From positions 248,001 through 312,000 of the forward strand of contig NZ_CP018192.1 of assembly GCF_001889525.1 (NCBI RefSeq): a stretch of DNA of 64,000 bases, given 5' to 3'. The stretch is from Granulibacter bethesdensis (lineage in GTDB: Bacteria > Pseudomonadota > Alphaproteobacteria > Acetobacterales > Acetobacteraceae). The notes under the pieces are model-generated. The model was not told the origin of the DNA. It worked only from the letters and a program-made list of their open reading frames with translations, and ran no database searches. Made by a program: the position numbers and the translations under genes. Positions 19,922 through 49,809 of this stretch are shown here, piece by piece (within the stretch, counting starts at the first letter, position 1; every line of letters begins with the position of its first letter).

Positions 19922-20041
19922 CTCGTTCAAACGGACTCTCCATCGCACGGGACAGGCAGCAGACTTTGTCATTCCACCGCGCAAATTCCGCGTGTTCAAT
20001 AATAAGCCTGCCTGGCGTCATGGCCGGTGGCGGGCTGGGTT

Positions 20042-34022: not shown

Positions 34023-34889
34023 ATGGAGGCCAACGCATTGCTCGGGGGACAGGGCGTGTCGCGCGGATGGCCATTCTGTCCGCCTGATATGGGCAGGCAG
34101 GGATTGAAGGGGGACGGATCGGTGGGATGGGGCAGGCTCTGGGGCGGCCGAAGCTATGATCTGGGCAAAATGACCTTACCCGAATTATGGGTCGCCTATT
34201 TAACCTATCCGGCGATACAGCTTTACTTCGCCCTGATGGCAGGCTGTGCGCTGCTGGCGGCCATCTTTTATCAAGGCGCAGGCGGTGTATTGCTGGGCGT
34301 GATGGCGGCGATCCTGATCTATCCCTTTGTCTGGTACGGCATTCATCGTTTTATCCTGCATGGCCGCTGGCTCTATCGCATGCGCTGGACAGCCCGGCTC
34401 TGGAAGCGGGTGCATTTCGATCATCATCAGGATCCACATCGGCTTGAGGTGCTGTTCGGTGATCCCCTGAATACCATTCCGACCATGGCCGTGATCACGG
34501 TACCGGTCGGCGCATGGTTGGGTGGTATGGCAGGCGCCGTCTCGGCCTTGGGTGGGGCGCTGATGATGACATGCGTCTACGAGTTCTTTCACTGCATCCA
34601 GCATCTGAACTACAAGCCGAAATCGCGTATTCTTCAGTATATGAAGCGTGTACATCTACTGCATCATTTCCATGATGAAAGCGGTAATTACGGCATCATC
34701 AACTTTCTGCCGGATATGCTGGCAGGCACTTATTACCGGGATACCCGGGCTCGGCCACGTAGCCCGCATGTGTTCAATCTGGGCTATGATGTAGAGGAGG
34801 CACGCCGCTATCCATGGGTAATGCAGGCCACGGGGACTCCCCCGCGTGACCGGCCTCTGCCTGCATCGGCGCTGGCGAAGCGGGTATGA
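34023..34889 (+). CDS. Fatty acid hydroxylase / sterol desaturase family membrane protein
   Basis: Diiron membrane oxygenase of the PF04116 type, 288 residues with about four helices. All histidine clusters are present: HRFILH, HFDHHQDPH, FHCIQH and HLLHHFHD. This family includes the fatty acid 2-hydroxylases that act on ceramide acyl chains. Here it precedes bCerS with an ATGA overlap, which makes ceramide or its acyl chain the likely substrate. The start is uncertain: the first 49 residues are unconserved Gly-rich sequence, and an ATG at 34170 (MTLPELW) just before the first helix is an alternative that leaves the palindrome in the leader. Confidence 0.85.
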   Translation: MEANALLGGQGVSRGWPFCPPDMGRQGLKGDGSVGWGRLWGGRSYDLGKMTLPELWVAYLTYPAIQLYFALMAGCALLAAIFYQGAGGVLLGVMAAILIYPFVWYGIHRFILHGRWLYRMRWTARLWKRVHFDHHQDPHRLEVLFGDPLNTIPTMAVITVPVGAWLGGMAGAVSALGGALMMTCVYEFFHCIQHLNYKPKSRILQYMKRVHLLHHFHDESGNYGIINFLPDMLAGTYYRDTRARPRSPHVFNLGYDVEEARRYPWVMQATGTPPRDRPLPASALAKRV

Positions 34890-36040
34890 TCTCCCCCTTC
34901 ATCCATCCGGCTTCAGGCATTGAGATCATCCCTATGCGCAGCAAAGCGGACAGGGAGCGTTTCATAGCGTTTCCAGACCGGCTGGCAGCTGAGGATCCCT
35001 ATTATATTGCCCCCCTCCGGATTGATCAGAGAATGCTGCTGTCGCAATCCAGGAATCCTTATTTTCGCCATGCGAAGGCTGCGTTCTGGCTGGCCAGACG
35101 CCATGGGCGTGATGTTGGGCGTATCAGTGCGCAACATGACTTGTTGGAGCCAAACGGGATCGGGCATTTCGGAATGCTGGCGGCCGAAGATGATGCAGCC
35201 GTTTTTGCGGCCCTGCTCAGGACGGTGGAAGCATGGCACCGGGAACGGGGTATTGGGGAGATACAGGGGCCGTTCAATCTATCGATCAATGAAACCGCGG
35301 GTGTTCTGGTCGATGGTTTTGAGACGCCGCCCATGCTGATGATGGGCCATGACCAGCCTTATGTGGGATCAAGGCTGGAAGAACAGGGCTATGAAAAGGC
35401 CCGGGATCTGCTGGCTTATCTCTATGACACGGAAGCGCCTTTGCCGCCTTTTGTCGGCAGGATGCTGAACAGGCCTTTGCCACAGGGGCTGTCGATCCGG
35501 CACCTCAACTGGTCGCGTTACAGAGAGGAGGTGGCCTCGATCACGGCGATCTTCAATGATGCATGGTCGGATAACTGGGGGTTCGTGCCCCTGACCGAGG
35601 ATGAGACCGATGCCATGGCGCAGCAACTTAAACTGCTGTTGCATGACAAAATGATCTGGTTTGCAGACTATGAAGGCAAACCAATTGCTTTTATCGTGGC
35701 TCTACCGAATCTGAACGAGGCAATCCGCGATCTTCGCGGAAAATTATGGCCTTTTGGCCTTGTCAGATTGCTGTGGCGTCTGAAAATACGCGGTGTCAAA
35801 ACTGCCCGTGTGCCCTTGATGGGGATCAAGCGCAGCTTCAGTCATGGGTTGCTGGGCAGTCTGATCCCTTTTCTGCTGGTTGATGCGGTGCGTCGGGAAA
35901 GCGCGAAATTAGGAATGTGTTCTGTTGAGCTGTCATGGGTTCTGGAAAATAATGATCCCATGCGGCGTATGAACGAAGCACTGGGCGGCAGTATCTACAA
36001 GACCTACCGTGTCTATCGAAAATCGCTTATGGAGGAGTAA
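34886..36040 (+). CDS. bcerS: Bacterial ceramide synthase-like N-acyltransferase
   Basis: A 384-residue protein with GNAT-like folds. It matches, from memory, the family of the Caulobacter ceramide synthase bCerS (CC_1154), often annotated only as a hypothetical or N-acetyltransferase. The central motif GPFNLSINETAGVLVDGFET followed by PPMLMMGHDQPYV is characteristic, as is ELSWVLENNDPMRRMNEALG near the C-terminus. It would acylate the sphingoid base or its 3-keto form. Its start overlaps the hydroxylase stop, and spt, acp and cerR are encoded 3-6 kb away on the other strand. Confidence 0.85.
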   Translation: MISPFIHPASGIEIIPMRSKADRERFIAFPDRLAAEDPYYIAPLRIDQRMLLSQSRNPYFRHAKAAFWLARRHGRDVGRISAQHDLLEPNGIGHFGMLAAEDDAAVFAALLRTVEAWHRERGIGEIQGPFNLSINETAGVLVDGFETPPMLMMGHDQPYVGSRLEEQGYEKARDLLAYLYDTEAPLPPFVGRMLNRPLPQGLSIRHLNWSRYREEVASITAIFNDAWSDNWGFVPLTEDETDAMAQQLKLLLHDKMIWFADYEGKPIAFIVALPNLNEAIRDLRGKLWPFGLVRLLWRLKIRGVKTARVPLMGIKRSFSHGLLGSLIPFLLVDAVRRESAKLGMCSVELSWVLENNDPMRRMNEALGGSIYKTYRVYRKSLMEE

Positions 36041-36250
36041 GCGGATAATGTCGCATGTCAGCAGGTGGGTTCTGAAAATTCTGCGGCGGACCACTTAAAA
36101 AATATTTTTAGGCCGCGATGCTTTCCACCATGATAAATCCGGTCATAGGATGGAAGTATTGTTGCCGTCTTGGTTGCCTAAAATTCTGCAAGCCGGGTGG
36201 ACATATCAATTTCTCCTACACTTGCAGCTGTGAACAGGGAATTTATGATT

Positions 36251-37393
36251 ATGTCTGAAAAATCCATCCGCATTGCGGTCGCAGGGATAGGCAATTGTGC
36301 CAGTGCGCTGATTCAGGGGCTGCATTATTACACGCCGGAGCGTTGTGAGCAGGGTGTTGCCGGGTTGATGCATACCGAGATCGGCGGGTTTCGTCCCTGT
36401 GATATCCACGTCGTTGCGGCGTTCGACGTTGATGCGCGCAAGGTTGGACAGGATGTCAGCCGGGCGATTTTTGCCAAGCCGAACTGTACCACCATTTTCC
36501 AGGCAGACATTCCGGATAGCGGTGTGATCGTGCAGATGGGACAGGTGCTGGATGGAATCTCCGACCACATGGCCCATTATGCGGATGACAGGACGTTCCT
36601 GCGCGCTGATGTCCCTGAACTGAACAAGGCTGAGATTGTCGCGGAGCTGCGTCGCAGCGGGGCGGAGGTGCTGCTCAACTACATGCCGGTGGGGTCGGAG
36701 CAGGCGGCACGGTTTTATGCCGAATGCGCATTGGAGGCCGGGATCGGCTTCATCAACAACATGCCGGTTTTTATCGCCTCTGACCCGGTTTTCGCGGCGC
36801 GTTTCAAGGCTGCAAACCTCCCTATCATCGGCGATGACATCAAATCCCAGCTGGGAGCCACGATTTCCCATCGTGTGTTGACCGATCTGTTTGCAAAGCG
36901 TGGGGTCAAGCTGCTGAGGACGTATCAGCTCAATACCGGCGGCAATACCGACTTTTTGAATATGAAAAATCAGGATCGTCTGGTCTCGAAGAAGAAATCG
37001 AAAACCGAAGCCGTGCAGGCCGTGGCCAAGAAGCGTATGGATGATACCGACATCCATGTTGGCCCGAGCGATTATGTGCCCTGGCAGAATGACAACAAGG
37101 TCTGCTTCATCCGCATGGAAGGGCATCTGTTCGGCGATGTGCCGATGAATCTGGAAATGCGCTTGTCGGTCGAGGATTCTCCCAATTCGGCCGGTGTGGT
37201 GATCGATATGATCCGCTGCTGCAAGCTGGCGCTGGACGCCGGAGTGGGCGGCGTTCTGGAAGGGCCCAGCGCCTATTTCTGCAAACATCCGCCCGTGCAG
37301 TTGACCGATGACGAAGCCTTTCAGGCGACCGAGCAGTTCATTCTGGATTATGCAGGGGGCAAGGCAAAGGTGAAGGTCTCTGTCGTCGCATGA
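36251..37393 (+). CDS. Inositol-3-phosphate synthase
   Basis: NAD-dependent enzyme converting glucose 6-phosphate to inositol phosphate. The N-terminus IRIAVAGIGNCASALIQGL is the Rossmann loop. The body has the family segments GDDIKSQLGATISHRVL, NTGGNTDFLNM and VGPSDYVPWQND, and EDSPNSAGVVIDMIRCCKLA. The 380 residues match the shorter bacterial/archaeal type. AGGGA lies before the chosen ATG; another ATG (36245) and a GTG (36197) are in frame. It is the first gene of an overlapping trio with a nucleotidyltransferase and a CDP-alcohol phosphotransferase, so its product is probably used for CDP-inositol. Confidence 0.93.
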   Translation: MSEKSIRIAVAGIGNCASALIQGLHYYTPERCEQGVAGLMHTEIGGFRPCDIHVVAAFDVDARKVGQDVSRAIFAKPNCTTIFQADIPDSGVIVQMGQVLDGISDHMAHYADDRTFLRADVPELNKAEIVAELRRSGAEVLLNYMPVGSEQAARFYAECALEAGIGFINNMPVFIASDPVFAARFKAANLPIIGDDIKSQLGATISHRVLTDLFAKRGVKLLRTYQLNTGGNTDFLNMKNQDRLVSKKKSKTEAVQAVAKKRMDDTDIHVGPSDYVPWQNDNKVCFIRMEGHLFGDVPMNLEMRLSVEDSPNSAGVVIDMIRCCKLALDAGVGGVLEGPSAYFCKHPPVQLTDDEAFQATEQFILDYAGGKAKVKVSVVA

Positions 37394-38106
37394 AATGCCT
37401 GATTGTCGCGGCCGGTCAGGGCGTCAGGCTGCGTACGAAAGGGGCGCTGAAACCGCTCATACCCCTTCGTGGAGTACCGCTGATTGAATCTGTGATGACC
37501 CGCACCATGCAGGCTGGCGTCGATGAATTTTTCGTTGTCAGTGGCTATCGTGGGGATGAGTTGAGGGCATTCCTCAACAGCTATGCGGCACGGGAAACCG
37601 TTCGCATCACGCATGTGATCAATCGTCAGTGGGATCGGGCCAATGGTTATTCCGTAACCATGGCCCGGCAGTTTCTGGATGAGCCGTTTCTGTTGGTGAT
37701 GTGCGATCATCTGGTAGATCCGGCTCTGATCCGTGCCCTGATCGCGTATGGCACGCCGGAGAATACGGTGACGCTGGCGGTCGATTACAATCTGGACAGC
37801 CCGCTGAACGATCCCGACGATGTGACGAGGGTTCAGGTCGAGGATGGCCGCATCATCCATATCGGCAAGGTGATCCGCATGTATAATGCCTACGATACAG
37901 GCGTTTTCTTGTGTACGCCAATCATTTTTGCTGCGCTGGAAGAAAGTCAGGCCGCGGGGGATGACAGTATTTCAGGGGCGATGAACGTTCTGGCCGGCTG
38001 GGGCCGGGCGCATGTCTTTGATATAGGCGACCGGGTCTGGGTTGATGTCGATGACCCGCTGGCTTTCGGAAAGGCAGAACAGTTACTGGCGGAGGGGCGG
38101 CTCTGA
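37390..38106 (+). CDS. Nucleotidyltransferase resembling inositol-1-phosphate cytidylyltransferase
   Basis: A single NTP-transferase domain of 238 residues. The signature CLIVAAGQGVRL opens it, followed by KPLIPLRGVPLIE. The segments RANGYSVTMARQFL, VMCDHLVDPALI, VQVEDGRIIHIGKVIR, YDTGVF and WVDVDDP match, from memory, the cytidylyltransferase half of the archaeal IPCT-DIPPS enzymes that make CDP-inositol. The start overlaps the inositol-phosphate synthase stop (ATGA). The expected reaction is CTP plus inositol phosphate to CDP-inositol. Another sugar nucleotide cannot be excluded, but the synthase upstream argues for inositol. Confidence 0.8.
   Translation: MKCLIVAAGQGVRLRTKGALKPLIPLRGVPLIESVMTRTMQAGVDEFFVVSGYRGDELRAFLNSYAARETVRITHVINRQWDRANGYSVTMARQFLDEPFLLVMCDHLVDPALIRALIAYGTPENTVTLAVDYNLDSPLNDPDDVTRVQVEDGRIIHIGKVIRMYNAYDTGVFLCTPIIFAALEESQAAGDDSISGAMNVLAGWGRAHVFDIGDRVWVDVDDPLAFGKAEQLLAEGRL
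38091..38105 (+). promoter_or_regulatory. Shine-Dalgarno and CTG start within a CTGA overlap
   Basis: GGAGG (38091-38095) stands seven bases before CTG (38103-38105). The last base of CTGA completes the stop of the upstream gene. No ATG or TTG occurs in frame before conserved coding sequence begins. Confidence 0.65.
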
Positions 38107-39002
38107 ACGCCATACCATCTCCCTCGACCTATGCGCGCCCACGGGCTGAGCCAGTTCGCCGGACGGCCGAGATCGAGGAAGCCACCAATCGTTGGATCGT
38201 GCATCCTCTTTCCGCAAGGTTGGTGCCGGTCTGTGCGCGTCTTGGCATCCATCCGAATGTTGTTTCGCTCAGTGGCATGATCTGCGGTGTGGCTGCCGGT
38301 TTTGCGTATGCGCAGTATCCACGCCTGCCTTTCATCATCTGTGGTTTTTTGCTGATGGCGGCATGGCATACTCTGGATGGAGTAGACGGGCAGCTTGCTC
38401 GCCTGACCTCGAAACAGTCCGCACTTGGAAAATTACTTGATGGAATCTGCGATTATATCACGTTTATCGCAGTTTATGTCGGGATCGGCTACGTTCTGAC
38501 ACCGCTTTATGGCGGCTGGATATGGGGGCTGATTGCGCTGGCTGGCATTGCCCATGCCGTGCAGGCGGCATCGTATGAGGCACAGCGGCAGGATTATGAT
38601 GCGTGGGGCAAAGGTTTGCTCCATAAACGCTTCACGATGTCTTCGTCAGACGCAGGTTGGCTATATGCAACCTATCTGCGTCTGCAACTGATGGTGGCAG
38701 GGGATATCATGGCACTGGATCGGGTTATGGCAGATGCCATAAGATGTGATCCTGCGCAGGCTTCATTTTTGCAGTCCCGCTATCAAGAGATTTTTGCAGC
38801 GCCTGTACGCCGCTGGGGGGTGATGTCGGCCAACTGGCGGACAATCAGCCTGTTTATATTCTGTCTGATTGGCCTACCAGCAGGTTATTTTCTGATGGAG
38901 ATCATCGGCTTCAGCATGGTCTGTGCGATTCTACTGCGTGCCCAGCGTCGTCGCCGTGCTGCGTTTGTGGAGATGATCCGTTCTGAAAGCCTGCCAGCCT
39001 GA
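38103..39002 (+). CDS. CDP-alcohol phosphotransferase, probable CTG start
   Basis: Integral membrane enzyme with about six helices. The family signature is complete: LDGVDGQLARLTSKQSALGK then LLDGICD, giving D-G-x2-A-R-x8-G-x3-D-x3-D at about residues 95-117. The closest pattern I recall is the DIPPS domain that uses CDP-inositol. The first GTG (38199) would lose the segment IEEATNRWIVHPLSARLVP, which belongs to the family N-terminus, so I place the start at the upstream CTG (299 residues). Likely reaction: transfer of phosphoinositol from CDP-inositol to a lipid alcohol, with ceramide as the best candidate given the neighbours. It converges with spt. Confidence 0.82.
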   Translation: MNAIPSPSTYARPRAEPVRRTAEIEEATNRWIVHPLSARLVPVCARLGIHPNVVSLSGMICGVAAGFAYAQYPRLPFIICGFLLMAAWHTLDGVDGQLARLTSKQSALGKLLDGICDYITFIAVYVGIGYVLTPLYGGWIWGLIALAGIAHAVQAASYEAQRQDYDAWGKGLLHKRFTMSSSDAGWLYATYLRLQLMVAGDIMALDRVMADAIRCDPAQASFLQSRYQEIFAAPVRRWGVMSANWRTISLFIFCLIGLPAGYFLMEIIGFSMVCAILLRAQRRRRAAFVEMIRSESLPA

Positions 39003-39021: not shown

Positions 39022-40221
39022 TCAGAGTGGAAAACCGATTTCTGAAGCCGCCACTTTGAAACGCGCGATGGCATTGCTGATCATCCCTTCTGTATGGCTG
39101 GCTGTCACGCTGGAACGCAGCAGAGGATGATCATCCGGCGTTGCGGGCGGCAGGGACAGATTAACATAAACCCCATGCGCCAGCAGCGCATTCCAGAAAG
39201 CGATGGCGGTGGGAATATCCGGCATCTTTACCGCCACGATAGGGCTGACCTGAGGTCCCACTGTGAAGCCAGCCTGTTTCAGGCCGCCATGAAGTGTTTC
39301 GGCATTGCGCCAGAGCGTTGCCTGCAAGTCCGGCCTTTGCTGCATTTGCCGTAGCGCGGACTGCACGGAGGCAATCACCGAGGCCGGCAGTGAAGCGGTA
39401 AACATATAAGGGCGGCAGGCAACGCGCAGAATGTCGAAGCCGTCTATGTCGGTCACACAAAAACCGCCGACACTGCCGAGACTTTTCGAAAATGTACCGA
39501 CGATAAAATCGGTATCGGCTTCTACGTTTTGAGCTTCCGACAGCCCACGCCCACGGGCCCCGAGCACACCCAGCGAATGGGCTTCATCCACCAGCAGCCA
39601 TGCACCCGCTTCGCGTTTGACAGCGGCAATCTCGGCAAGGGGACAGCTGTCGCCGAGCATGGAGTAAATACCTTCGACCACCACCAGCTTTGCGCCGGAT
39701 GTGCCATCCAGACGACGCAGGCGGCGGGCCAGATCTTCCGGATCGTTGTGACGGAAACGGATCACCTGCGCCTGACCAAGGCGGCTGCCATCATAGATGC
39801 TGGCATGGCTATCAGCATCCAGCAGCAGATAGTCATCCTTGCCGGCCAGCGTAGAGAGAATGCCGAGATTGGCCTGATAGCCGGTGCTGAACACCATGGC
39901 ATGTTTGCGACCATAGAACGCAGCCAGCTCGTGTTCCAGTGCGGTGTGCAGTGCTGTGGTGCCATTGGCGATACGGGAGCCGGTGGTGCCGGTTCCATGC
40001 TCGCGCACGGCCTCGGCGGAAGCGCTTATCCCGGCCGGGTCCAGATTGAGGCCAAGATAGTTGTTGGTCCCGAACAGCAGGGTTGGCTGTCCATTGATCA
40101 TGCCTTCACCGGCCGAGGGGCCTGGCTCGATCACCACGCTGAACGGATCATGCCCGGCGGCGGCCAGTGCGCGGCGTGCTTCGGCGAGGGGAGCAAATTT
40201 GGCAAGAATGGAAGAGCTCAT
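39022..40221 (-). CDS. spt: Serine palmitoyltransferase
   Basis: PLP enzyme of the alpha-oxoamine synthase family that condenses serine with an acyl thioester to 3-ketosphinganine. The Schiff-base Lys is K246 in GTFSKSLGSVGG, with DEAHSLGVLG (D212, H215) and His 139 in DADSHASIYDG. The family also contains KBL, BioF and HemA. The context (acyl carrier protein, acyl ligase, epimerase-like reductase and bCerS) selects SPT. The 399 residues suit the soluble homodimeric bacterial enzyme. It is last in a four-gene minus-strand operon. Confidence 0.93.
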   Translation of the reverse strand: MSSSILAKFAPLAEARRALAAAGHDPFSVVIEPGPSAGEGMINGQPTLLFGTNNYLGLNLDPAGISASAEAVREHGTGTTGSRIANGTTALHTALEHELAAFYGRKHAMVFSTGYQANLGILSTLAGKDDYLLLDADSHASIYDGSRLGQAQVIRFRHNDPEDLARRLRRLDGTSGAKLVVVEGIYSMLGDSCPLAEIAAVKREAGAWLLVDEAHSLGVLGARGRGLSEAQNVEADTDFIVGTFSKSLGSVGGFCVTDIDGFDILRVACRPYMFTASLPASVIASVQSALRQMQQRPDLQATLWRNAETLHGGLKQAGFTVGPQVSPIVAVKMPDIPTAIAFWNALLAHGVYVNLSLPPATPDDHPLLRSSVTASHTEGMISNAIARFKVAASEIGFPL

Positions 40222-40264: not shown

Positions 40265-40516
40265 TCAAGGCGCGGCAGTTAATTCGGCCAGACAGGCGGC
40301 CAGATCGTTGATGGTGCGGATCCCTGCCAGTCGGTCTAGCGGCACAGAGACATCGAGGCGATCTTCGATGTCCATGACGAAATTCATGACAGCGAGCGAG
40401 TCCAGCCCGAGATCATCGACGATCACCGTCTCTCCGTTCACCGGCTTTGCCGTTTTGGAGCGTGCAGTCAGCGTATCAATGATCAGAGCTTTAATGGAGG
40501 GCAGATCGGTGCTCAT
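40265..40516 (-). CDS. Acyl carrier protein dedicated to sphingolipid synthesis
   Basis: An 83-residue carrier protein with the phosphopantetheine Ser at position 40 in DDLGLDSLAVMNFV. It is more divergent than AcpP and lies between spt and cerR, as in the Caulobacter ceramide cluster where a special ACP supplies the acyl chain for SPT. GGAG six bases before the ATG is a good ribosome site. The loading enzyme is probably the acyl-AMP ligase encoded two genes upstream. Confidence 0.92.
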   Translation of the reverse strand: MSTDLPSIKALIIDTLTARSKTAKPVNGETVIVDDLGLDSLAVMNFVMDIEDRLDVSVPLDRLAGIRTINDLAACLAELTAAP

Positions 40517-40569: not shown

Positions 40570-41541
40570 CTAGCGGGGGGCGTGCGCCGGGGCCAGCCAA
40601 CCCGCGGCACGGTACCATGCGACGGCGCTGGAAAATCCATGATCAAGGGAGATACGGGGCCGGGCAATAGCATCGGGCAGTAATTCAGCCGGGGAGACCG
40701 ACCAGTCGGGATGCAGCATCTCCCGCGCCTTGCCTGTATTGAAAATGGTGGGTCGCCGGGAAAGCAGACCGTAAAGGCTGCCCGCCAGCCCGGCCCCCCA
40801 TATGGAGGCTGCAGGCAGCCGGACATAGTGGGGATGGTGGCCGAGCGCCTGCGCGGCGGTCTGCATGATCTCCTGCGGCGTATAACCCTGCGGATTGCCA
40901 TCGGCGAGCGTGCAGAGAGAGGGCGGCGTTTCGTGCGTGGCCAGAGCCGCGATCGCATCGGCGGCATCGGTGACATGGATCATGGCGATTCTGGAGTGGG
41001 GATGACCGGCGACAGGTACGATCCGGAAAGCGGCGCTCCTGAAAATGGACAGGGTGGCGGTATCCCATGGACCATAGATGGCCGGGGGCCGCACAATGCA
41101 CAGCTTGCCCCCGAACCCGTCTCTCAAAGCCTGTTCTCCGGCGAATTTACTGGCGGCATAGGCGGATAGATGCGGCGCCCGTGCGGCAAGGGAGGAGATG
41201 CCGATCAGCCGTGCCGCCGGTGTGCAGCGTTGCAGCATGGAGGCGAGCCTGAAAGCGCCATCCCGGTTGACAGCCAGAAATGCCTGGGGTGAGCGCGCCC
41301 GTACCAGTCCGGCCAGATGCAGGACCACATCAGCACCCGTCAGCAGCCGTTGCAGCGCGGTTTCATCCGCCAGACCGCCTGAAACAGTTTCGATCCCTCT
41401 GTCCTGCCACAGCGGATGCGGTTCAGGTCTGCGGATCATGGCGCGGACGTGAAATCCGCGCTCTGCCAGGGCAGCCACGGTATGGCAGCCCAAAAACCCG
41501 GTGGCCCCTGTTACCGCCGCGATGGGTTTTCGGGCCATCAT
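40570..41541 (-). CDS. cerR: NAD(P)-dependent epimerase-like reductase, CerR type
   Basis: Extended short-chain dehydrogenase of 323 residues. The Rossmann motif is AAVTGATGFLGCHTVAALAE, with HLAGLVRARS and the active-site SAYAASKFAGE (Tyr-x3-Lys). In Caulobacter the equivalent gene encodes CerR, which reduces the 3-keto group of the sphingoid base or ceramide. The assignment rests on family and position between the acyl ligase and the ACP. Two ATGs (41541 and 41538) are adjacent. Confidence 0.85.
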   Translation of the reverse strand: MMARKPIAAVTGATGFLGCHTVAALAERGFHVRAMIRRPEPHPLWQDRGIETVSGGLADETALQRLLTGADVVLHLAGLVRARSPQAFLAVNRDGAFRLASMLQRCTPAARLIGISSLAARAPHLSAYAASKFAGEQALRDGFGGKLCIVRPPAIYGPWDTATLSIFRSAAFRIVPVAGHPHSRIAMIHVTDAADAIAALATHETPPSLCTLADGNPQGYTPQEIMQTAAQALGHHPHYVRLPAASIWGAGLAGSLYGLLSRRPTIFNTGKAREMLHPDWSVSPAELLPDAIARPRISLDHGFSSAVAWYRAAGWLAPAHAPR

Positions 41542-41550
41542 TCAGCCCGT

Positions 41551-43299
41551 TCAGGCGACGGAGGAGACAGGATCGCTCTCGAAAGCGCCAGTCAGCAGCA
41601 TCTGCCTTGCCCGTGCGCGGCTGAGCTTGCCGGATGAAGTCTGCGGCAGGCTGCGCGGTGGCACCAGAATGACGGAGACCTCTACGCCATGCTGGCGCAG
41701 GAACAGGGAAGCCGCTTCCTGCTGAAGGGCCTCACGGGCAGCCGGATCGCTGAGCCTGCATTGCAGCAGCGCCACAACTTTCTCCTGCGCGTCATTGTCG
41801 ATCGAGAAAACGACCACATCACGGCTGCGCAGGGCAGGAATATGGCTCTCGGCGGACCATTCGAGATCCTGCGGCCAGATATTGCGACCGTTGACGATGA
41901 TCAGATCCTTGGCGCGTCCGGTGACGACAATCTGCCCGTTCAGCAGATAGCCGAGATCACCGGTATTGAGCCATCCATCAGCGGAGAGCACCGCGGAGGT
42001 TGCTTCCGGCTGGGCGAAGTAGCCAGTCATGATGCTCGGCCCCCGTGCATAGATCACGCCCACGCGGCGTTCCGGCAGCACGGTTCCATCCTCGCCACGT
42101 ATCTCGATGGTGTAGCCGGGCAAAGCGGGTCCACACAGGACAAAGTCGCGGCCCTGACCGGTCTGCTCCTCCGGCACGCTGGCAAGGGCGAGACCCTGAT
42201 GTTCCAGCGGTCCGCGCGCCACGACATCGGTATGCAACCCTCCACCATGGGGGGAGAAGCTGAGGGCCAGTGTGACTTCGGCCATGCCATAGCTGGGGAC
42301 AAAAGCCCGATCACTGAAACCGCGTGTTGCGAAGCGCGCGGCAAAATCGCGCAGAACCTGCGGTCGAATCATGTCCCCGCCAATCCCGGCAATGCGCCAG
42401 CTGGAGAGGTCAAGCGTTTCCAGAGCGCTCTCGGCCCGGCGGGCGCACAGCTCATAGCCGAAGGAAGGGCTGTAGGAGAGCGTGCCGCGATTGCGGCTGA
42501 TCAGATCCAGCCAGACCAGCGGGCGGCGTGCGAATTCCCGCGTTGGCAGAAAATCGACTGAAATCTGGCAGGTCAGCGGGGTCAGCAAAAAGCCGACCAG
42601 CCCCATATCGTGATACAGCGGCAGCCAGGAAACACCCCGATCCCCATCCCTGAACGCCAGCCCGTGCTGGCTGATGGCTGCGGCATTGGCCATGGCGGCG
42701 CGCTGCGTCACGGCCACGCCGAGCGGGAACCGGGTGCTGCCTGAGGAAAACTGTAGATAGGACAGCGCATCCGGATCAATCGCGGGCAGGTCCATCCCTG
42801 GGACCGGCATGGTATGCAGCATGGTGGCGGTGCCGGTGAAGACGAGGTTCAGACCCTCAGTCGCTTCCTGCAACCATTCGTTCAGCAGATCGGGTGCAAA
42901 GGCCGCGCTGGCCTGTGCGCTTTCGATCATGCGGCGGATATTGGCGATATAGCCTTCCCGTCCGGCAAACGCAGCCGGCAGCGGCAGGGGGGCTGGCACC
43001 AGCCCGGCATACTGGCAGGCCCAGAAGAGGCGGACGAAATTGCCGTCATTCTCGGCAATCAGCGCGATGCGATCACCCGGATTGAGACCCAGCGCCAGCA
43101 GGCGACGGGCGTCATCCTGTGCCTGACGACGCAGTTCCCGATAGGGCAGGGCTTCCTGCAACACACCGCGCCCGGAGTAGAAATTCAGCCCCGCCTGACC
43201 GGTGGCGGCATAATCCAGCGCATCCGGCAGAGTGGGAAAATCAGCAAGCCGACGGGGAGTGCCAGCGTCTGACGGTGTGGGGATGACGGAATGATGCAC
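41551..43299 (-). CDS. Fatty acyl-AMP/acyl-ACP ligase
   Basis: Adenylate-forming enzyme of 582 residues, FAAL-like in sequence. LQFSSGSTRFPLGVAVTQ is the phosphate loop, WLPLYHDMGLVGFLLTPL and YGMAEVTLALSF are typical of the FAAL branch, and TGDLGYLLNGQIVVTGRAKD is the hinge. The end LPQTSSGKLSRARAR carries the C-terminal Lys. In the Caulobacter ceramide locus an acyl-ACP synthetase loads the special ACP, and the same task is expected here. The start is a GTG without a strong ribosome site, but a stop lies in frame not far upstream. Confidence 0.88.
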   Translation of the reverse strand: MHHSVIPTPSDAGTPRRLADFPTLPDALDYAATGQAGLNFYSGRGVLQEALPYRELRRQAQDDARRLLALGLNPGDRIALIAENDGNFVRLFWACQYAGLVPAPLPLPAAFAGREGYIANIRRMIESAQASAAFAPDLLNEWLQEATEGLNLVFTGTATMLHTMPVPGMDLPAIDPDALSYLQFSSGSTRFPLGVAVTQRAAMANAAAISQHGLAFRDGDRGVSWLPLYHDMGLVGFLLTPLTCQISVDFLPTREFARRPLVWLDLISRNRGTLSYSPSFGYELCARRAESALETLDLSSWRIAGIGGDMIRPQVLRDFAARFATRGFSDRAFVPSYGMAEVTLALSFSPHGGGLHTDVVARGPLEHQGLALASVPEEQTGQGRDFVLCGPALPGYTIEIRGEDGTVLPERRVGVIYARGPSIMTGYFAQPEATSAVLSADGWLNTGDLGYLLNGQIVVTGRAKDLIIVNGRNIWPQDLEWSAESHIPALRSRDVVVFSIDNDAQEKVVALLQCRLSDPAAREALQQEAASLFLRQHGVEVSVILVPPRSLPQTSSGKLSRARARQMLLTGAFESDPVSSVA

Positions 43300-44119: not shown

Positions 44120-45256
44120 ATGCGTCAGATCCTGATTTTCCGCCATAACCTGTTCCGTGTTTCGGAGCCGTTCGTCACCGAACCGGCTGAAGCGTTGACG
44201 CGCTATCGCCCGCTTTACATGGGGTGGCTGCGCTATGGGGAGGCCCCGTCGGGGGCGGAGTCCATTGTGCTGGGGCGTTGTGCCGGTACGCGTCCTTCTG
44301 CTGCGGTAGGCTGGCAGATGCTGTCCCGCGATCCCGGCCCCTATCTGCGCCGGTTGGGTGAGTACAGGCCGTCGCTGATCCATGCCCATTTCGGAGTTGA
44401 TGGCAGCTATGCCCTGCCGCTGGCCAGGCGGCTCGGTGTGAAGCTGGTCACGACATTTCATGGGTTTGATGCGACCCTGTCTCTGGCAGGGCTGATGACC
44501 TCTCCCCCCTGGGCCTGGTATGCGTTGATGCGGCACAGGTTGGCGCGGGAGGGCGCGTTGTTCCTCTGTGCCTCCGCGTTTATTCGCCGGAAAGTGCTGG
44601 CGCTGGGTTTCCCTGCTGAGCGCACGCGGGTTCACTATATCGGCGTGGATTGTGCCGGAATCACGCCTCGTGCGCCGGAGGAGGAGACCAGAACCATCCT
44701 GCATGTCGCCCGGCTGGTGGAAGTGAAGGGCACCGCTTCTCTGCTCCGCGCTTTTGCCCGCCTGAATGGCCGGCATGAGGATGTCAGGCTGGATATTATC
44801 GGGCAGGGTCCGTTGCTGCCCGGGTTGCGTGATCTGGCGCGTGTGCTGGGCGTTGAAGCGCGGGTGCGGTTTCTCGGTGCATGGCCGCATGAGGCTGTTC
44901 TGCACCATATGCGACAGGCGGCGATGCTGGTGCAGCCGAGCGTGCGCACCCGCAACGGCAGGGAGGAAGGGTTAGGCATGGTCCTGCTGGAAGCCGCGGC
45001 AAGCGGTGTTCCCGCGATCGGATCGCTCAGTGGCGGTATACCGGAAGCCGTCCGGGATGGGGGAACCGGTTTTCTGACACCGGAGCGGGATGTGGAGGCG
45101 CTGGCCCGCCGGATGAATGATCTGCTGGATGACGACACGCTTCGCCGGCGTATGGGCCATGCTGCCCGGCGCATGGCTGAGCAGGAATTCGACCGCCAGC
45201 GTCAGACGGCCCGTCTGGAAACCCTGTATGATTCGGTGCTCGACCATGCAGGCTGA
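44120..45256 (+). CDS. GT4-type glycosyltransferase
   Basis: GT-B glycosyltransferase of 378 residues. The N-terminal half has HAHFGVDGSYALPLARRLG and VTTFHGFDATLS. The C-terminal half has TILHVARLVEVKGTASLLRA, LDIIGQGPLLPGLRDL and the donor-site VQPSVRTRNGREEGLGMVLL with the E-x7-E pattern. The ATG used begins MRQILIFRHN, where conservation starts; the frame is open 25 codons further. Its last bases overlap a PIG-L deacetylase gene, suggesting that the sugar it adds is then de-N-acetylated, as with GlcNAc. Confidence 0.88.
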   Translation: MRQILIFRHNLFRVSEPFVTEPAEALTRYRPLYMGWLRYGEAPSGAESIVLGRCAGTRPSAAVGWQMLSRDPGPYLRRLGEYRPSLIHAHFGVDGSYALPLARRLGVKLVTTFHGFDATLSLAGLMTSPPWAWYALMRHRLAREGALFLCASAFIRRKVLALGFPAERTRVHYIGVDCAGITPRAPEEETRTILHVARLVEVKGTASLLRAFARLNGRHEDVRLDIIGQGPLLPGLRDLARVLGVEARVRFLGAWPHEAVLHHMRQAAMLVQPSVRTRNGREEGLGMVLLEAAASGVPAIGSLSGGIPEAVRDGGTGFLTPERDVEALARRMNDLLDDDTLRRRMGHAARRMAEQEFDRQRQTARLETLYDSVLDHAG

Positions 45257-46091
45257 AGCAGGTGGGGTTCCAGAGGGAGCGACCATCGTCGTTGCGCACC
45301 CGGATGATGAATGTCTCTGGCTGAGTTCCGTGCTGCCGACGGCCCGCCATGTGGTGTTCATATTCGGCGATTCCTTTACACGTCCCCGGCGTGCGGCAGC
45401 CCGGCGGCGGGCCGTGGCAGCCTTGCATCTGCCGGGGCATCTGCCGGGGCTGGTCAATCTGGCGATCCCGGAAAGCGGGGCAGGGTTCAAGGTTGACTGG
45501 GCGGATGAGCGTCTCGACACCGCACTGACCCGATTCGGCATTGCGATCAACGAGCCAGCGGCGCGGGCGCGCTACGAGGCCAATTTTGACCGTGTGCTCA
45601 CCGCGTTGAGGCCGCATCTGACCGGAGTGCCGCATGTCTGCACCCATAATCCATGGGGCGAATACGGCCATGCCGAGCATTTTCAGGTTCATCGTGCCGT
45701 GATGCAGTTGCAGGCGGAGCTGGGCTTTACGGTCTGGTACAGCAATTACGTGGATTCACGCAGTCTGACCCTCGCGGCCCGGATCGGGGCGTCTCCCTGT
45801 TATGCACAGCAAAGAACTGTCCCTACGGCACCGGGGGTTGCGCGGGGGCTGATGCGGGTTTATCGCCGCCACGGAGCCTGGACCTGGACACGCTGGCATG
45901 TCTGGCCAGAGCGGGAGACTCTGTTTTCGGTTCCGCCGGAAGGATGTCTCTCGACGCTGGCGGGCGAGGCATTGCTGGATGTTGCGGGATTACGCCTGTG
46001 GCCGCCACCCTGGCGTCGTGCTCTTCGTGTTCTGCCGGTTCAGCCGCCTTTATCGTCCCTGTTTCGCCCTCCGGTGGCGGGGCAGGCATAA
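45246..46091 (+). CDS. PIG-L family (LmbE-like) deacetylase
   Basis: Zinc-dependent de-N-acetylase fold, 281 residues. The metal motif IVVAHPDDECLWLSSVL is near the N-terminus and a second His cluster appears in THNPWGEYGHAEHFQVHRAV. Relatives deacetylate GlcNAc-inositol compounds (PIG-L in GPI anchors, MshB in mycothiol) and other N-acetyl sugars. The start overlaps the glycosyltransferase gene by eleven bases. The last 80 residues differ from simple LmbE proteins and may be for substrate binding. The real substrate is not known. Confidence 0.88.
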   Translation: MQAEAGGVPEGATIVVAHPDDECLWLSSVLPTARHVVFIFGDSFTRPRRAAARRRAVAALHLPGHLPGLVNLAIPESGAGFKVDWADERLDTALTRFGIAINEPAARARYEANFDRVLTALRPHLTGVPHVCTHNPWGEYGHAEHFQVHRAVMQLQAELGFTVWYSNYVDSRSLTLAARIGASPCYAQQRTVPTAPGVARGLMRVYRRHGAWTWTRWHVWPERETLFSVPPEGCLSTLAGEALLDVAGLRLWPPPWRRALRVLPVQPPLSSLFRPPVAGQA

Positions 46092-46107: not shown

Positions 46108-47103
46108 ATGGCAAAGCTTCCTCTGTCGAAGAAACTCAAGGGTCTCCGTTCGGGCCTGCGCTTTCTCGGTCTTGTTGCCAGCTCCCGTTATAATCCTTTG
46201 CTGGCGCAGGTGGTGGTAACACGGCGCTGCAACCTGGCCTGCGGATACTGTAACGAATACGATACGTTTTCTCCGCCCGTGCCGTTGCCGGAACTGCTGG
46301 CGCGGATTGATCATCTGGCGAAACTCCGCACAGCCTCCATCACGTTTACCGGAGGCGAGCCGCTGCTTCATCCGCAGTTGGATGAGGCCATCCGGGCGGC
46401 GCGGCGTCATGGCATGATCGTGACGATGATTACCAACGGGTTCCGTCTGACCAAAGCCTGGATCGACCGTCTGAATGCGGCTGGATTACAGGGTATGCAG
46501 ATCAGCATCGACAATCTGGAACCGGATGAGGTGTCGATGAAAAGCCTGCATTCGGTGGAAAAGAAACTCGGATTGCTGGCGGAGCATGCGCAGTTCAAGG
46601 TCAACGTCAATTCGGTGCTGGGGATCAGTGATGAACGCACACCGGATGTGATCGAGGTTGCGCGCACCGCCGCCAAATATGGGCTGCAGCATTCTGTCGG
46701 TGTGCTGCACGATCATACCGGAACGCTGAAGCCGCTCAGTGCGCTCCAGATGGCGGCCTATGCGACGGTCACGAAAATCTCGCCGTCTCTGGTGCATGGC
46801 CTCAATTATCGGCTGTTTCAGCGGAACCTGATGCAGGGGCAGCCCAATCAATGGAAATGCCGCGCCGGCGCGCGTTACCTGTATGTGACTGAGGACGGGC
46901 GGGTACACTGGTGTTCACAGCAGCGGGGCTATCCGGCCATTCCGTTGCTGGAATACACGCGGGAGGATCTGCGGCGCGAATATCATACGCCCAAATCCTG
47001 CGCGCCGACCTGCACTTTATCCTGCGTTCATCAGATGAGCATGTTTGATGGCTTCCGTGGGGCGCAGACCTTGCCAGAGCCTGTTCCTGCGGCGGCTGAA
47101 TAG
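46108..47103 (+). CDS. Radical SAM protein with Cys-rich C-terminus
   Basis: Residues 28-220 form the radical SAM barrel with TRRCNLACGYCNEYD (Cx3Cx2C) and the SAM-binding TFTGGEPLLHP. The C-terminal 90 residues contain WKCRAGARYLYVTEDGRVHW then CSQQ, and later CAPTCTLSCVHQ, a SPASM/twitch-like set of Cys that may bind an extra cluster. I do not recognise the precise subfamily. The gene is 16 bases after the deacetylase gene and probably acts on the same glycan or lipid; an epimerisation, deoxygenation or C-C bond step are all possible. Confidence 0.85.
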   Translation: MAKLPLSKKLKGLRSGLRFLGLVASSRYNPLLAQVVVTRRCNLACGYCNEYDTFSPPVPLPELLARIDHLAKLRTASITFTGGEPLLHPQLDEAIRAARRHGMIVTMITNGFRLTKAWIDRLNAAGLQGMQISIDNLEPDEVSMKSLHSVEKKLGLLAEHAQFKVNVNSVLGISDERTPDVIEVARTAAKYGLQHSVGVLHDHTGTLKPLSALQMAAYATVTKISPSLVHGLNYRLFQRNLMQGQPNQWKCRAGARYLYVTEDGRVHWCSQQRGYPAIPLLEYTREDLRREYHTPKSCAPTCTLSCVHQMSMFDGFRGAQTLPEPVPAAAE

Positions 47104-47108
47104 GTTTA

Positions 47109-48545
47109 TCAGGTGGAAGAAGGCTCTTTTTTTCGCTGAGAGAGCGGCAGAACGGAGCCAATCGTGATGATGGCGGCAATCATTACCAGCCGAAGCATGG
47201 GAGGGGCCGTTCCCGTGAGTGTTTCCAGACCGATCACGATCAGCACCAGAATGGCCGCCCGCTCCACAGACCCCCGCATGGTGTGCAGCCATATCCACGG
47301 TGACCAGCCCCAGCGCCGGTGCACATACCGGGATGCCCAGAGCAGGGCACAGGGATAGATCGCAAGCCATGATGCGGCGGCGGCGATCACGCCCTGTTCC
47401 GGTGGCAGGACCAGCCCGGCCCACAGAATACCGAGGCTGAGCAGCGTCAGGGTTGTTGCCGAGAGTTTTGCCGCCATACCGGGCTGCCCGGTGGCCAGCA
47501 TCAGCGGAAACATCAGTTCAAGCATCACGCGCAGCAGGGCGGCACCGGTCAGAAGCTGAAGGGGCAGAGCGGCGTCGGCATAGCTTCCGCCATGACCGTC
47601 TTTCAGCAGCGCCAGCAGCGGATGGGCTGCAAGGATCAGTCCGATCGTGATCGGCGTGACCAGCATCAGCACGCGGCGCAGGGCCCAGGTAACCCCTTCC
47701 TGAAGCGCTTGTGGCGTATGCGCCATGCGGGAAAAAACCGGCAGGGTCGCACGCTTGATCAACTGGCTGACGGCCATGGCCGGTTCCATCGCTACATCGA
47801 AGGCAACCCGGTAAAGGGCCAGCGATACCGGGCCATATAATCCGCCCACCAGCAGGAAATCGATATTGCGGAACACCTGATCGAGCAGGCTGGCCGAGGC
47901 CGAGCGGATACCGAAACGCAGCAGAAAACGGATGGTGATGAACCGGAAGCGCAGACGCGGCCGGAAGGGGTGCGCAATGAGGGATGCTGTCAGAATGCAT
48001 GCGCCGCTGATCGTATAGGCCGCCACAAGCGCCCAGCTTCCGGCCCCGCAGACCGCCAGCCCGGCGCGGGTGAGGGCGCCGCCGAATGTGCCTGCCAGTC
48101 CGACGACGGCAATGCGTTCATACTGCAAGCCCCGGTTCATCTGTGCCAATGGAATGACCGCTCCGGCCACCAGAGGCTGTTTCAGCGCGACCGCCGCGAA
48201 ATATCCCACAATGCCGTCAATCCCGTACAGCGCGCCGCCAGTCATGGCCAGCAGCCATGTCAGAAGGGCGATTACCGCGGCGGCGGTCATGACGAACCAG
48301 AACAGGCTGTCATACTGGGTGCGGCTGATACGGGGGGCCTGTACCAGCGCCTCGGCAGCGCCGATCCCGTCCAGCGCTTCGATCACCATGCCGGCGGCGA
48401 TCACCATGGCGGCGATGCCGACCTGCTCCTTGGTCAGAAACATCAGGGCGATCAGCGTGCTGGCAATGTCCATGATTCTGGTGGCGATGGCGGCTCCGCC
48501 CAGCCAGGTGAAGCCACGGGCCAGATGCTGCCGGTGGTTATCCAT
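47109..48545 (-). CDS. Wzx-type polysaccharide/lipid-linked oligosaccharide flippase
   Basis: Integral membrane protein of the MOP superfamily, 478 residues with about 12 to 14 helices. The start RGFTWLGGAAIATRIMDIAS and the segment EALDGIGAAEALVQAPRISR fit O-antigen type flippases (Wzx/WzxC). It would move an undecaprenyl-linked or other lipid-linked glycan across the inner membrane. It overlaps the end of the next glycosyltransferase gene by eight bases and converges with the radical SAM gene. Confidence 0.87.
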   Translation of the reverse strand: MDNHRQHLARGFTWLGGAAIATRIMDIASTLIALMFLTKEQVGIAAMVIAAGMVIEALDGIGAAEALVQAPRISRTQYDSLFWFVMTAAAVIALLTWLLAMTGGALYGIDGIVGYFAAVALKQPLVAGAVIPLAQMNRGLQYERIAVVGLAGTFGGALTRAGLAVCGAGSWALVAAYTISGACILTASLIAHPFRPRLRFRFITIRFLLRFGIRSASASLLDQVFRNIDFLLVGGLYGPVSLALYRVAFDVAMEPAMAVSQLIKRATLPVFSRMAHTPQALQEGVTWALRRVLMLVTPITIGLILAAHPLLALLKDGHGGSYADAALPLQLLTGAALLRVMLELMFPLMLATGQPGMAAKLSATTLTLLSLGILWAGLVLPPEQGVIAAAASWLAIYPCALLWASRYVHRRWGWSPWIWLHTMRGSVERAAILVLIVIGLETLTGTAPPMLRLVMIAAIITIGSVLPLSQRKKEPSST

Positions 48546-49809
48546 GCGGTGGCGTTTCCGGCGAAGGAAAGGGTGCGGATGGGCGTGGTGGCAGCACCCA
48601 TGAACGGGTCTTGAGCAGGTGCGTAAACCATTGTCGGGACTGACCGAGCCATTGACGCCAGTGTCGCGCTGTCCAGCGGGATGAGCATGGAGGAGGAGCC
48701 TGCATCTTTGTTTGCAGGATGGTGGCGATGCGGCTGGCGCGCGCCTCCCAGGTCAGGCTCTGACTATCGGCCTGAGCGGTTTGTGCCAGCCTGTGCGCCC
48801 GCGCCGGATCGGTGGTCAGGGTCGTAAGGCCCTCTGCCAGCGCCTCGATATCGTCCGCCCGGCAGAGCCATGCATTACGATCATGCTCCAGCAATTCCCG
48901 GACATCCGGGGTATCGCCCGCCAGAATGGGCCGTCCGGAGGCCAGATACAGAAACAGCTTCAGCGGCAGTACCGTGGAGCCGAACTGCATCAGCGGGCTG
49001 GAGGAGGGAGGAATCACCAGCACATCCGCAGCAAACAGATAGCGGGAGAGGGTCGCTTCCGTCTGCCACGGAATGAATGTCACATTGGCAAGACCGGCCG
49101 CCATGGTCTCGATCGGGCCATGGCCCGTAGAGCCGACCAGCAGAAAGCGGATCTGCGGCAGCCGGCGTGCGGCCTCGATCAGCAGCGGCAATCCTTTCTT
49201 GTGATTGATGCGGCCGGTATAGATTGCGGTGATCTGCGTCGGATCGAGGCCGAGCGCGCGTTTTGCATCTTTGACCGGCACGGGGTGGCGCAGCCGGTCC
49301 GGCTCGAACCCGTTATGCACGCAGAGCAGTTTGTCCGGGTGTATCCCCAGCGCCAGATATTTTTGCCGTGTATAGTCGGAATGACAGATATGGATCAGGA
49401 CATGGCGTTGGGAGAACAGCCGAAACAACCATCGCTGCAAAGGAGGGATCTGGTCTGGCCAAGGGCGGTAATGATCGAAGGCAACGCGCTTTCCGCACAG
49501 CACGGCCATCCAGGTGACGAACAGATTGCGCGAATAGACCAGATCCGCTTCCCGGAAAGCCCGGCGCAGCACGATCGTCAGGCCACAGGCCAGATGCCGG
49601 ACCAGTCCCGGTCCACGTGGTGCCCATGCACGGATAACGTCCATGCCTGCGAGGGTTTCGCTGGCCTTTAAACCCTCCGGCGCGGAGATGGGAACATGCA
49701 GCCAGCATTGGTCGAGGTGCCGGGACAGATAACGAGCGGTGGTGGTAAAGACTTCGGCGTCGGCTTCCCGGCTGGGCAGTGGATTTTCGAACGCAAAAAG
49801 GATTTTCAT
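48538..49809 (-). CDS. GT4-type glycosyltransferase
   Basis: GT-B transferase of 423 residues. The N-terminus MKILFAFENPLPSREADAEV starts the first Rossmann half. The second half has TAIYTGRINHKKGLPLLIEA, FLLVGSTGHGPIETM and the donor-site region STVLPLKLFLYLASGRPILA. The C-terminal 50 residues are Trp/Arg-rich, as in peripheral membrane enzymes. A Shine-Dalgarno GGAG stands very near the chosen ATG; earlier ATGs exist at 49827 and 49875. Overlap with the flippase gene suggests a common pathway. Confidence 0.86.
   Translation of the reverse strand: MKILFAFENPLPSREADAEVFTTTARYLSRHLDQCWLHVPISAPEGLKASETLAGMDVIRAWAPRGPGLVRHLACGLTIVLRRAFREADLVYSRNLFVTWMAVLCGKRVAFDHYRPWPDQIPPLQRWLFRLFSQRHVLIHICHSDYTRQKYLALGIHPDKLLCVHNGFEPDRLRHPVPVKDAKRALGLDPTQITAIYTGRINHKKGLPLLIEAARRLPQIRFLLVGSTGHGPIETMAAGLANVTFIPWQTEATLSRYLFAADVLVIPPSSSPLMQFGSTVLPLKLFLYLASGRPILAGDTPDVRELLEHDRNAWLCRADDIEALAEGLTTLTTDPARAHRLAQTAQADSQSLTWEARASRIATILQTKMQAPPPCSSRWTARHWRQWLGQSRQWFTHLLKTRSWVLPPRPSAPFPSPETPPHG

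Follow-up and report, generated by a model that had tools for sequence, protein, structure and literature searches.

A candidate CDP-inositol route to glycosylated inositol-phosphoceramide encoded within the ceramide locus of Granulibacter bethesdensis

We analysed a 64,000-nucleotide stretch of the Granulibacter bethesdensis chromosome (contig NZ_CP018192.1, positions 248,001 to 312,000; hereafter the window), taken from a genome of 2.69 Mb assembled as one contig. Inside a ceramide locus in this window, three forward-strand genes overlap as a trio. They encode a myo-inositol-phosphate synthase (MIPS; 36251..37393), a CTP:inositol-1-phosphate cytidylyltransferase-like nucleotidyltransferase (NT; 37390..38106) and a CDP-alcohol phosphotransferase of family PF01066 (AP; 38103..39002), the proposed CDP-inositol:ceramide phosphoinositoltransferase. 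A coordinate check agreed with the first-pass annotation of this DNA, which had described the trio as one unit lying between a bCerS-like gene and spt, and gave a 4 bp overlap at each junction. The upstream neighbor is an acyltransferase gene (34886..36040, forward strand) that matched no family in Pfam and NCBIfam scans and that, following the first-pass annotation and Caulobacter bCerS, we take to be a bacterial ceramide synthase. The downstream neighbor, spt (39022..40221, reverse strand), encodes serine palmitoyltransferase (NF047599, 636 bits; cut-off 500). The gene families identified by profile, their order, their overlap and their co-occurrence are direct observations. We propose, with a probability of roughly 0.58, that the product of the locus is a CDP-inositol-dependent inositol-phosphoceramide (IPC) that is subsequently glycosylated, and thus similar to a glycosylinositol-phosphoceramide (GIPC).

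MIPS matched PF01658 above its cut-off (121 bits) and TIGR03450 at 432 bits, below the 638 required by that model. An in-frame ATG is present at 36251, and a GTG at 36197 lies in the same open frame. For AP, the first-pass annotation had given a start at 38103; the coordinates stand, but this codon is CTG, and the earliest ATG, GTG or TTG of the frame is at 38199. A conserved N-terminus (consensus AEPVRRTxEIEE) precedes 38199, with R20, E23, I24 and E25 invariant in 20/20 aligned orthologues (20 of the 22 AP relatives whose locus had been retrieved), and the NT/AP junction at 38103 is the same in two genomes of the genus. For these two reasons, AP likely starts near 38103 with a non-standard CTG codon that overlaps the NT stop.

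All of the NT motifs quoted in the first-pass annotation were found in the translation: ANGYS at 84, CDH at 105, VEDGRIIHIGK at 150, DTGVF at 169 and WVDVD at 217. Its assignment to the IPCT (inositol-1-phosphate cytidylyltransferase) type is supported by sequence comparison. The top NCBIfam model was IPCT-DIPPS, NF041135 (114 bits, 6.6e-33), with a cut-off of 580 that a one-domain protein could hardly reach, as this is a two-domain Thermococcales equivalog model. The same model was matched by 16/16 aligned orthologues, drawn from 18 NT sequences found by motif scan. The nearest sequence relatives in the PDB were three IPCTs (2xme, 4mnd and 4jd0), the third at 6e-23 and the next match 12 orders weaker at 9e-11. 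Moreover, R13, K21 and D106 were invariant in 16/16 orthologues and are by motif pairing the counterparts of R16, K26 and D112 in the active site of 4JD0, the Thermotoga maritima IMPCT (PMC12275187). Because Caulobacter CpgD retains equivalents of these residues (PMC12275187), the triad leaves the substrate of NT unsettled; inositol is favored because MIPS adjoins NT.

AP contains the full CDP-alcohol phosphotransferase signature (DxxDGxxAR...GxxxDxxxD), as DGVDGQLAR at 92 and GKLLDGICD at 109. A structure was predicted for this protein only, and the model showed a six-helix fold with the features of a class I CDP-alcohol phosphotransferase. The likeness to DIPPS raised in the first-pass annotation was borne out in this comparison, which relied on Foldseek's own alignments: among solved folds AF2299 ranked first and IPCT-DIPPS second, with phosphatidylinositol phosphate (PIP) synthases behind. 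In one locus, the gene before AP (L106:8660-10027) encodes 455 aa that, by reading, resemble a degenerate nucleotidyltransferase fused to a CDP-alcohol phosphotransferase domain with a broken signature (AGVDGKLAQ); this protein is perhaps a pseudoenzyme partner.

The trio was found to track the ceramide gene spt. Among 299 Acetobacteraceae genomes, 25 had an AP orthologue (E <= 1e-20), 100 had spt (E <= 1e-80) and 24 had both. Thus, spt was present in 24/25 genomes with AP versus 76/274 without it (Fisher, 9e-12). Kinship was handled coarsely, by counting genera, and the corresponding values were 12/12 versus 26/90 (2e-6). A divergent AP (38% identity) in genome G413 was retained in these counts, whereas G578, a 67% complete genome that has both glycosyltransferases and the de-N-acetylase described below but no AP match, was counted as lacking AP. 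When 385 genomes from across the class were sampled at the outset, AP had close relatives (E <= 1e-70) in G000, G246 and G355 only, and all other matches were at 3e-14 or weaker. Among public genomes, relatives also occur in Acidocella, Gluconacetobacter, Nitrospirillum, Acetobacter peroxydans and others.

A second sample, which overlaps the first, consisted of 80 AP loci from named genomes with up to 10 kb on either side. NT shared the locus in 63/80 and both MIPS and NT in 53/80; the grouping of the trio is not due to chance. The bCerS-like gene had a homologue in 25/80 loci and spt was present in 30/80. At least one of spt, bCerS, ceramide reductase (CerR) and acyl-AMP ligase was present in 38/80, including one locus (L125) counted on a weak acyl-ligase match alone. 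Of the 50 loci lacking spt, 48 had genomes that were searched, and spt was found elsewhere in 42. In Nitrospirillum BR 12005, one of the six in which spt was not found, the contig carrying AP breaks off close to the point at which spt starts in a related genome (L063 versus L068), and an assembly gap is therefore possible.

Downstream of the ceramide genes lie two GT4-type glycosyltransferase genes, GT4a (44120..45256, forward strand; PF00534; searched from 44132) and GT4b (48538..49809, reverse strand; WcaI- and MshA-like models below cut-off; searched up to 49806). A close GT4a match was present in 25/25 genomes with AP versus 2/274 others at E <= 1e-60 (G578, and a paralogue of 40% identity in G406) and 1/274 at E <= 1e-90 (G578). 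When only spt genomes were considered, GT4a was present in 24/24 with AP and, at 1e-90, in 0/76 without it (1/76 at 1e-60). Matches at E 8e-65 to 8e-62 with 38-42% identity form a paralogue group, which was excluded from the GT4a counts because six AP genomes carry it in addition to a closer match; G406, which has spt and lacks AP, carries the paralogue only. GT4b was likewise found in 25/25 AP genomes, as well as in the partial genome G578, and in 0/49 spt genomes without AP (49 of the 76 were covered for GT4b and for the radical SAM gene). The latter gene (46108..47103, forward strand; PF04055) was present in 17/25 AP genomes, with 70-81% identity outside the genus, absent from G578 and found in 0/49 of the same set. 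In 15 AP genomes AP lies away from spt, and in 11 of these GT4a or GT4b is within 20 kb of AP. The PDB relatives of GT4a include BshA, PimB, MshA and PimA types. In Acidocella aromatica (L051:6705-7706), a Gly_transf_sug gene (DXD, GT32-like) lies upstream of MIPS; the IPC mannosyltransferases of yeast are GT32 enzymes.

Between GT4a and the radical SAM gene is a PIG-L/MshB-like de-N-acetylase gene (PIG-L; 45246..46091, forward strand; searched from 45249) with the motifs AHPDDE and HNPWGEYGH. It scored 25.7 bits against PF02585, below the cut-off of 28.2, whereas its Acidocella orthologue passes at 30.9 bits. PIG-L was found in 12/25 AP genomes versus 2/274 others, one of them G578. Orthologues retain both motifs, and H17-E21 together with H133, H141 and H144 was invariant in 21/21 aligned sequences (21 of the 23 that were kept; filters removed two of the 24 loci with a match). 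A profile of the family matched three MshB chains in the PDB (E 1e-4, over 58 positions), and 19/21 members weakly matched the MshB model. In another genome of the genus (G537:C1:288724-289596), the PIG-L match is in two pieces, perhaps through a change of frame or because part of the sequence has diverged. As spt alone does not bring them, we conclude that GT4a, GT4b, the radical SAM gene and PIG-L follow the inositol branch.

Genes for membrane transport complete this part of the locus. A MOP/Wzx-type flippase is encoded at 47109..48545 (reverse strand; PF13440, 158.7 bits), and second copies of lipopolysaccharide-type export permeases at 49965..51134 (LptF2, forward strand, start unsettled; TIGR04407, 274 bits, cut-off 230) and 51131..52198 (LptG2, forward strand; TIGR04408, 289 bits, cut-off 240, scanned from 51221; PF03739 at 51143-52186). 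The genome contains four LptF/LptG genes, one pair in this locus and the other elsewhere. In Caulobacter, a sphingolipid cluster contains LptC2, LptF2 and LptG2, for which a role in export was proposed (PMC11324152).

The remaining genes of the locus lie around the trio. A fatty acid hydroxylase superfamily protein (34023..34889, forward strand; PF04116, 69.9 bits, above cut-off), present in 15/80 AP loci, is perhaps a ceramide hydroxylase. On the reverse strand, an 83-aa acyl carrier protein-like product containing DLGLDSLAVMNF (40265..40516) was recognized by reading the translation only. It is followed by an NAD-dependent epimerase/dehydratase (40570..41541; PF01370, 85.9 bits), which from synteny with Caulobacter we take to be CerR, and by a fatty acyl-AMP ligase (41551..43299; NF006624, 908 bits, above cut-off), presumably the acyl-ACP synthetase of the pathway. 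Next to the ceramide locus, 31626-32648 encodes a putative membrane protein of the HpnL type, flippase-like, which exceeds the cut-off of TIGR03476. Farther away in the window, 15965-19999 encodes a 1344-aa protein that, by reading, has an AMP-binding, nonribosomal peptide synthetase-like N-terminal part and hexapeptide-repeat-like stretches.

In the proposed pathway, NT would join inositol phosphate to CTP, giving CDP-inositol, and AP would move phosphoinositol from CDP-inositol onto ceramide or unreduced 3-keto-ceramide with release of CMP. GT4a would then place a sugar on the inositol, probably N-acetylglucosamine (GlcNAc) where PIG-L is present to trim it to glucosamine (GlcN), although GT4a could also act before AP. 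GT4b would attach a further sugar, the radical SAM enzyme would perhaps modify the inositol or a sugar, and the flippase and second LptF/LptG pair would bring the lipid to the outer membrane. Each substrate, the donor and acceptor, the sugars and their order of addition, and the role in transport are inferred. The first-pass annotation had predicted IPC itself; that prediction is partly supported, among other things by the association of the trio with spt far above background. However, as two glycosyltransferase genes, PIG-L, the radical SAM gene and the second LptF/LptG copies either co-occur with the trio or share its locus, the pathway probably does not stop at unmodified IPC. For the genomes that have PIG-L, GlcN-inositol-phosphate-ceramide would be the simplest reading. 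A fuller version of this proposal, which we hold tentatively and at somewhat less than even odds, is that some Acetobacteraceae and other Gram-negatives make a true GIPC by a direct CDP-inositol route, bearing GlcN (or another sugar) and at least one second sugar, modified by a radical SAM enzyme in part of the group and exported by a dedicated LptF2G2 pair, and that this lipid, though made by unrelated enzymes, converges chemically on the GIPCs of plants and fungi and on glycosylphosphatidylinositol (GPI) anchors.

Several findings weigh against this pathway. Genomes from one family are not independent, there was no spt match in one of the 25 AP genomes (G512), and six of 49 AP-locus genomes also gave none. 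PIG-L is missing from 13/25 AP genomes, a weaker copy (4e-38) is present in G534, which lacks AP, and the window PIG-L by itself had no PDB match at E <= 1. Lipid-acceptor CDP-alcohol phosphotransferases, judged by eukaryotic CEPT1/CPT1, typically carry 3-4 additional C-terminal transmembrane (TM) helices (PMC4634129); the AP model is without them and ends in one long helix, 259-296. Finally, CerR of Caulobacter is periplasmic (PMC11087976), and finished ceramide may therefore not face cytosolic CDP-inositol. For the same reason, AP may by analogy act on 3-keto-ceramide ahead of reduction. The other unfavorable points concern the donor and the head group, and they bear on alternative readings.

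The best-placed alternative, though an improbable one, is that AP transfers phosphoinositol from CDP-inositol to diacylglycerol (DAG), yielding phosphatidylinositol (PI), and that a separate enzyme may then shift the head group onto ceramide, a scheme put forward for Bacteroides vulgatus. Such a prediction was published for a Bacteroidetes cluster of NT, CDP-alcohol phosphotransferase and HAD protein (PMC9246714), and contigs titled Bacteroidota (L125:9968-12933) and Rubricoccaceae (L127:9980-13004) carry AP with a MIPS-like gene and then NT behind it. On the latter contig, a gene reading as an LPG_synthase_TM-type membrane protein precedes AP. Plain PI synthesis would not require AP to be nearly restricted to spt genomes, and no HAD protein was among the Pfam and NCBIfam matches of the scanned locus proteins, which were the part of the genomes searched for HAD. 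A head-group-swapping enzyme of the AUR1 type was also sought through PAP2_3 (PF14378), the Pfam family containing AUR1-type IPC synthases. PAP2_3 matches were found in 11/25 AP genomes, five of them above cut-off, so that 20/25 had none at that level. A hidden AUR1-type synthase was rejected for the window genome, where the best match was 21.3 bits against a cut-off of 27, and AP itself belongs to PF01066; this is in keeping with the first-pass annotation, which had supposed that no eukaryote-type IPC synthase is needed.

It is less probable still that AP acts like a PIP synthase, joining CDP-DAG to inositol phosphate to form PIP, with NT serving some other purpose. Archaetidylinositol-phosphate and PIP synthases, users of a CDP-lipid donor, are the best NCBIfam models of AP and each matches 20/20 orthologues, which counts against CDP-inositol as donor, but the scores are far under the cut-offs (52 versus 180 and 39.9 versus 170 bits). 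Likewise, R246 (20/20) and R282, just after TM6 (16/20), might supply the Arg pair of PIP synthases (R153 and R191 of RsPIPS) when compared by position rather than by superposition. By the same positional comparison in the orthologue alignment, TM5 shows no conserved RxxR, and none of the positions 259-278 holds a conserved basic residue. AF2299 and IPCT-DIPPS outrank PIP synthases structurally, and NT remains near AP in most loci.

Slightly below this we rank the possibility that NT activates another phosphoalcohol and that the head group of the sphingolipid is not inositol. CpgD is the precedent: its best structural match is also an IPCT, yet it uses phosphoglycerate and its product is CDP-glycerate (PMC12275187), so that resembling an IPCT is not enough to establish what NT uses. 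What argues for inositol is that MIPS, the maker of inositol phosphate, overlaps NT and accompanies it in the 53 loci noted above, that a MIPS-like gene of another type (by reading) lies between AP and NT in L125 and L127, and that PIG-L resembles MshB. Synthesis of soluble di-inositol phosphate (DIP) is very unlikely; MIPS, IPCT and DIPPS are the gene set for DIP and IPCT-DIPPS is the second-best fold match of AP, but DIP is known from hyperthermophiles, and this reading would not account for the links with spt, with two glycosyltransferases and with LptF2G2. Least likely of all, GT4a and PIG-L would form a mycothiol-like thiol pathway sharing MIPS, as the matches of MIPS to TIGR03450, of GT4a to MshA among others and, weakly, of PIG-L to MshB might suggest; we rejected this link, since MshC in the genome reached 297.6 bits against a cut-off of 485.1, each of 14 control genomes also matches the MshC model, one of them above cut-off, and NT and AP are not known to have a role in mycothiol synthesis.

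We return to a CDP-inositol-dependent, glycosylated IPC as our preferred reading. The general idea is already known, because a CDP-inositol route was predicted for B. vulgatus and CDP-glycerate for the Caulobacter CPG2 pathway. The first-pass annotation had called the route distinct; it does differ from the eukaryotic route with PI as donor, but synthesis of inositol lipids from CDP-inositol by a bacterial NT and CDP-alcohol phosphotransferase had been proposed (PMC9246714). As far as the literature search shows, what is new is the position of the trio among ceramide genes with no swapping enzyme seen in the unit, and the extension by glycosyltransferases, PIG-L and LptF2G2. That search, which covered few subscription papers, found no report of a bacterial glycosylated IPC. 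If the proposal is correct, there is a second, CDP-inositol-based route to inositol sphingolipids, with named candidate genes for sugar addition, and second LptF/LptG copies in sphingolipid loci acquire a role. As no phosphate was detected in the G. bethesdensis lipid A studied (PMC8036547), an anionic sphingolipid would be of interest in this organism.

The closest published parallel is the alternative cluster of B. vulgatus and Prevotella, in which MIPS, a nucleotidyltransferase and a CDP-alcohol phosphotransferase are proposed to act via CDP-inositol and an inositol sphingolipid results (PMC9246714); PI synthesis from CDP-inositol by such clusters is a prediction that is unconfirmed (PMC9246714, PMC10191378). 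In that scheme the conversion of PI-DAG to PI-dihydroceramide is assigned, as a proposal, to a HAD protein (PMC9246714), whereas none was seen among the proteins scanned here. Compared by description, the G. bethesdensis trio differs in lying among ceramide genes and in being accompanied by glycosyltransferases, PIG-L and LptF2G2. Bacteroides thetaiotaomicron BT_1522-1526 also produces a bacterial IPC, but PI arises via PIP, and the AUR1 homologue BT_1522 transfers the head group to ceramide (PMC9246714). Novosphingobium acidiphilum has a lipid consistent with inositol-dihydroceramide although it has neither cluster (PMC9246714). The CPG2 pathway of Caulobacter (CpgB, CpgC, CpgD, CpgA) resembles our locus in using an IPCT-type cytidylyltransferase for a sphingolipid head group together with a protein that contains a CDP-alcohol transferase domain, and in having a second LptF/LptG; it differs in that a ceramide kinase acts first and CDP-glycerate, hypothesized as the donor for CpgA (PMC12275187), then serves with ceramide phosphoglycerate as acceptor (PMC12275187, PMC11324152). 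From the numbering, we infer that CpgA is CC_1159. The present locus instead has MIPS, a predicted CDP-inositol donor and a putative direct transfer to ceramide.

With the IPCT-DIPPS enzymes of archaea and Thermotoga (4mnd, 2xme, 4jd0), NT shares the sequence of the IPCT part and AP the fold of the membrane part. MIPS lies upstream in those systems, as it does here. Their acceptor is a soluble inositol phosphate, whereas in G. bethesdensis the activities are on separate genes and a lipid acceptor is proposed. In eukaryotes, IPC synthase forms IPC and sugar is then added to the inositol in making GIPC, while in the GPI pathway GlcNAc is added and then de-N-acetylated. The eukaryotic IPC synthase takes its head group from PI and belongs to an unrelated transferase family, in contrast to the CDP-inositol proposed here, but the logic of the products is alike. 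The product predicted for this gene set would be a bacterial equivalent of lipids known chiefly from plants and fungi, and a GIPC-like lipid in a bacterial outer membrane, if the proposal is correct, would provide a comparison for the logic of eukaryotic GIPCs and GPI anchors.

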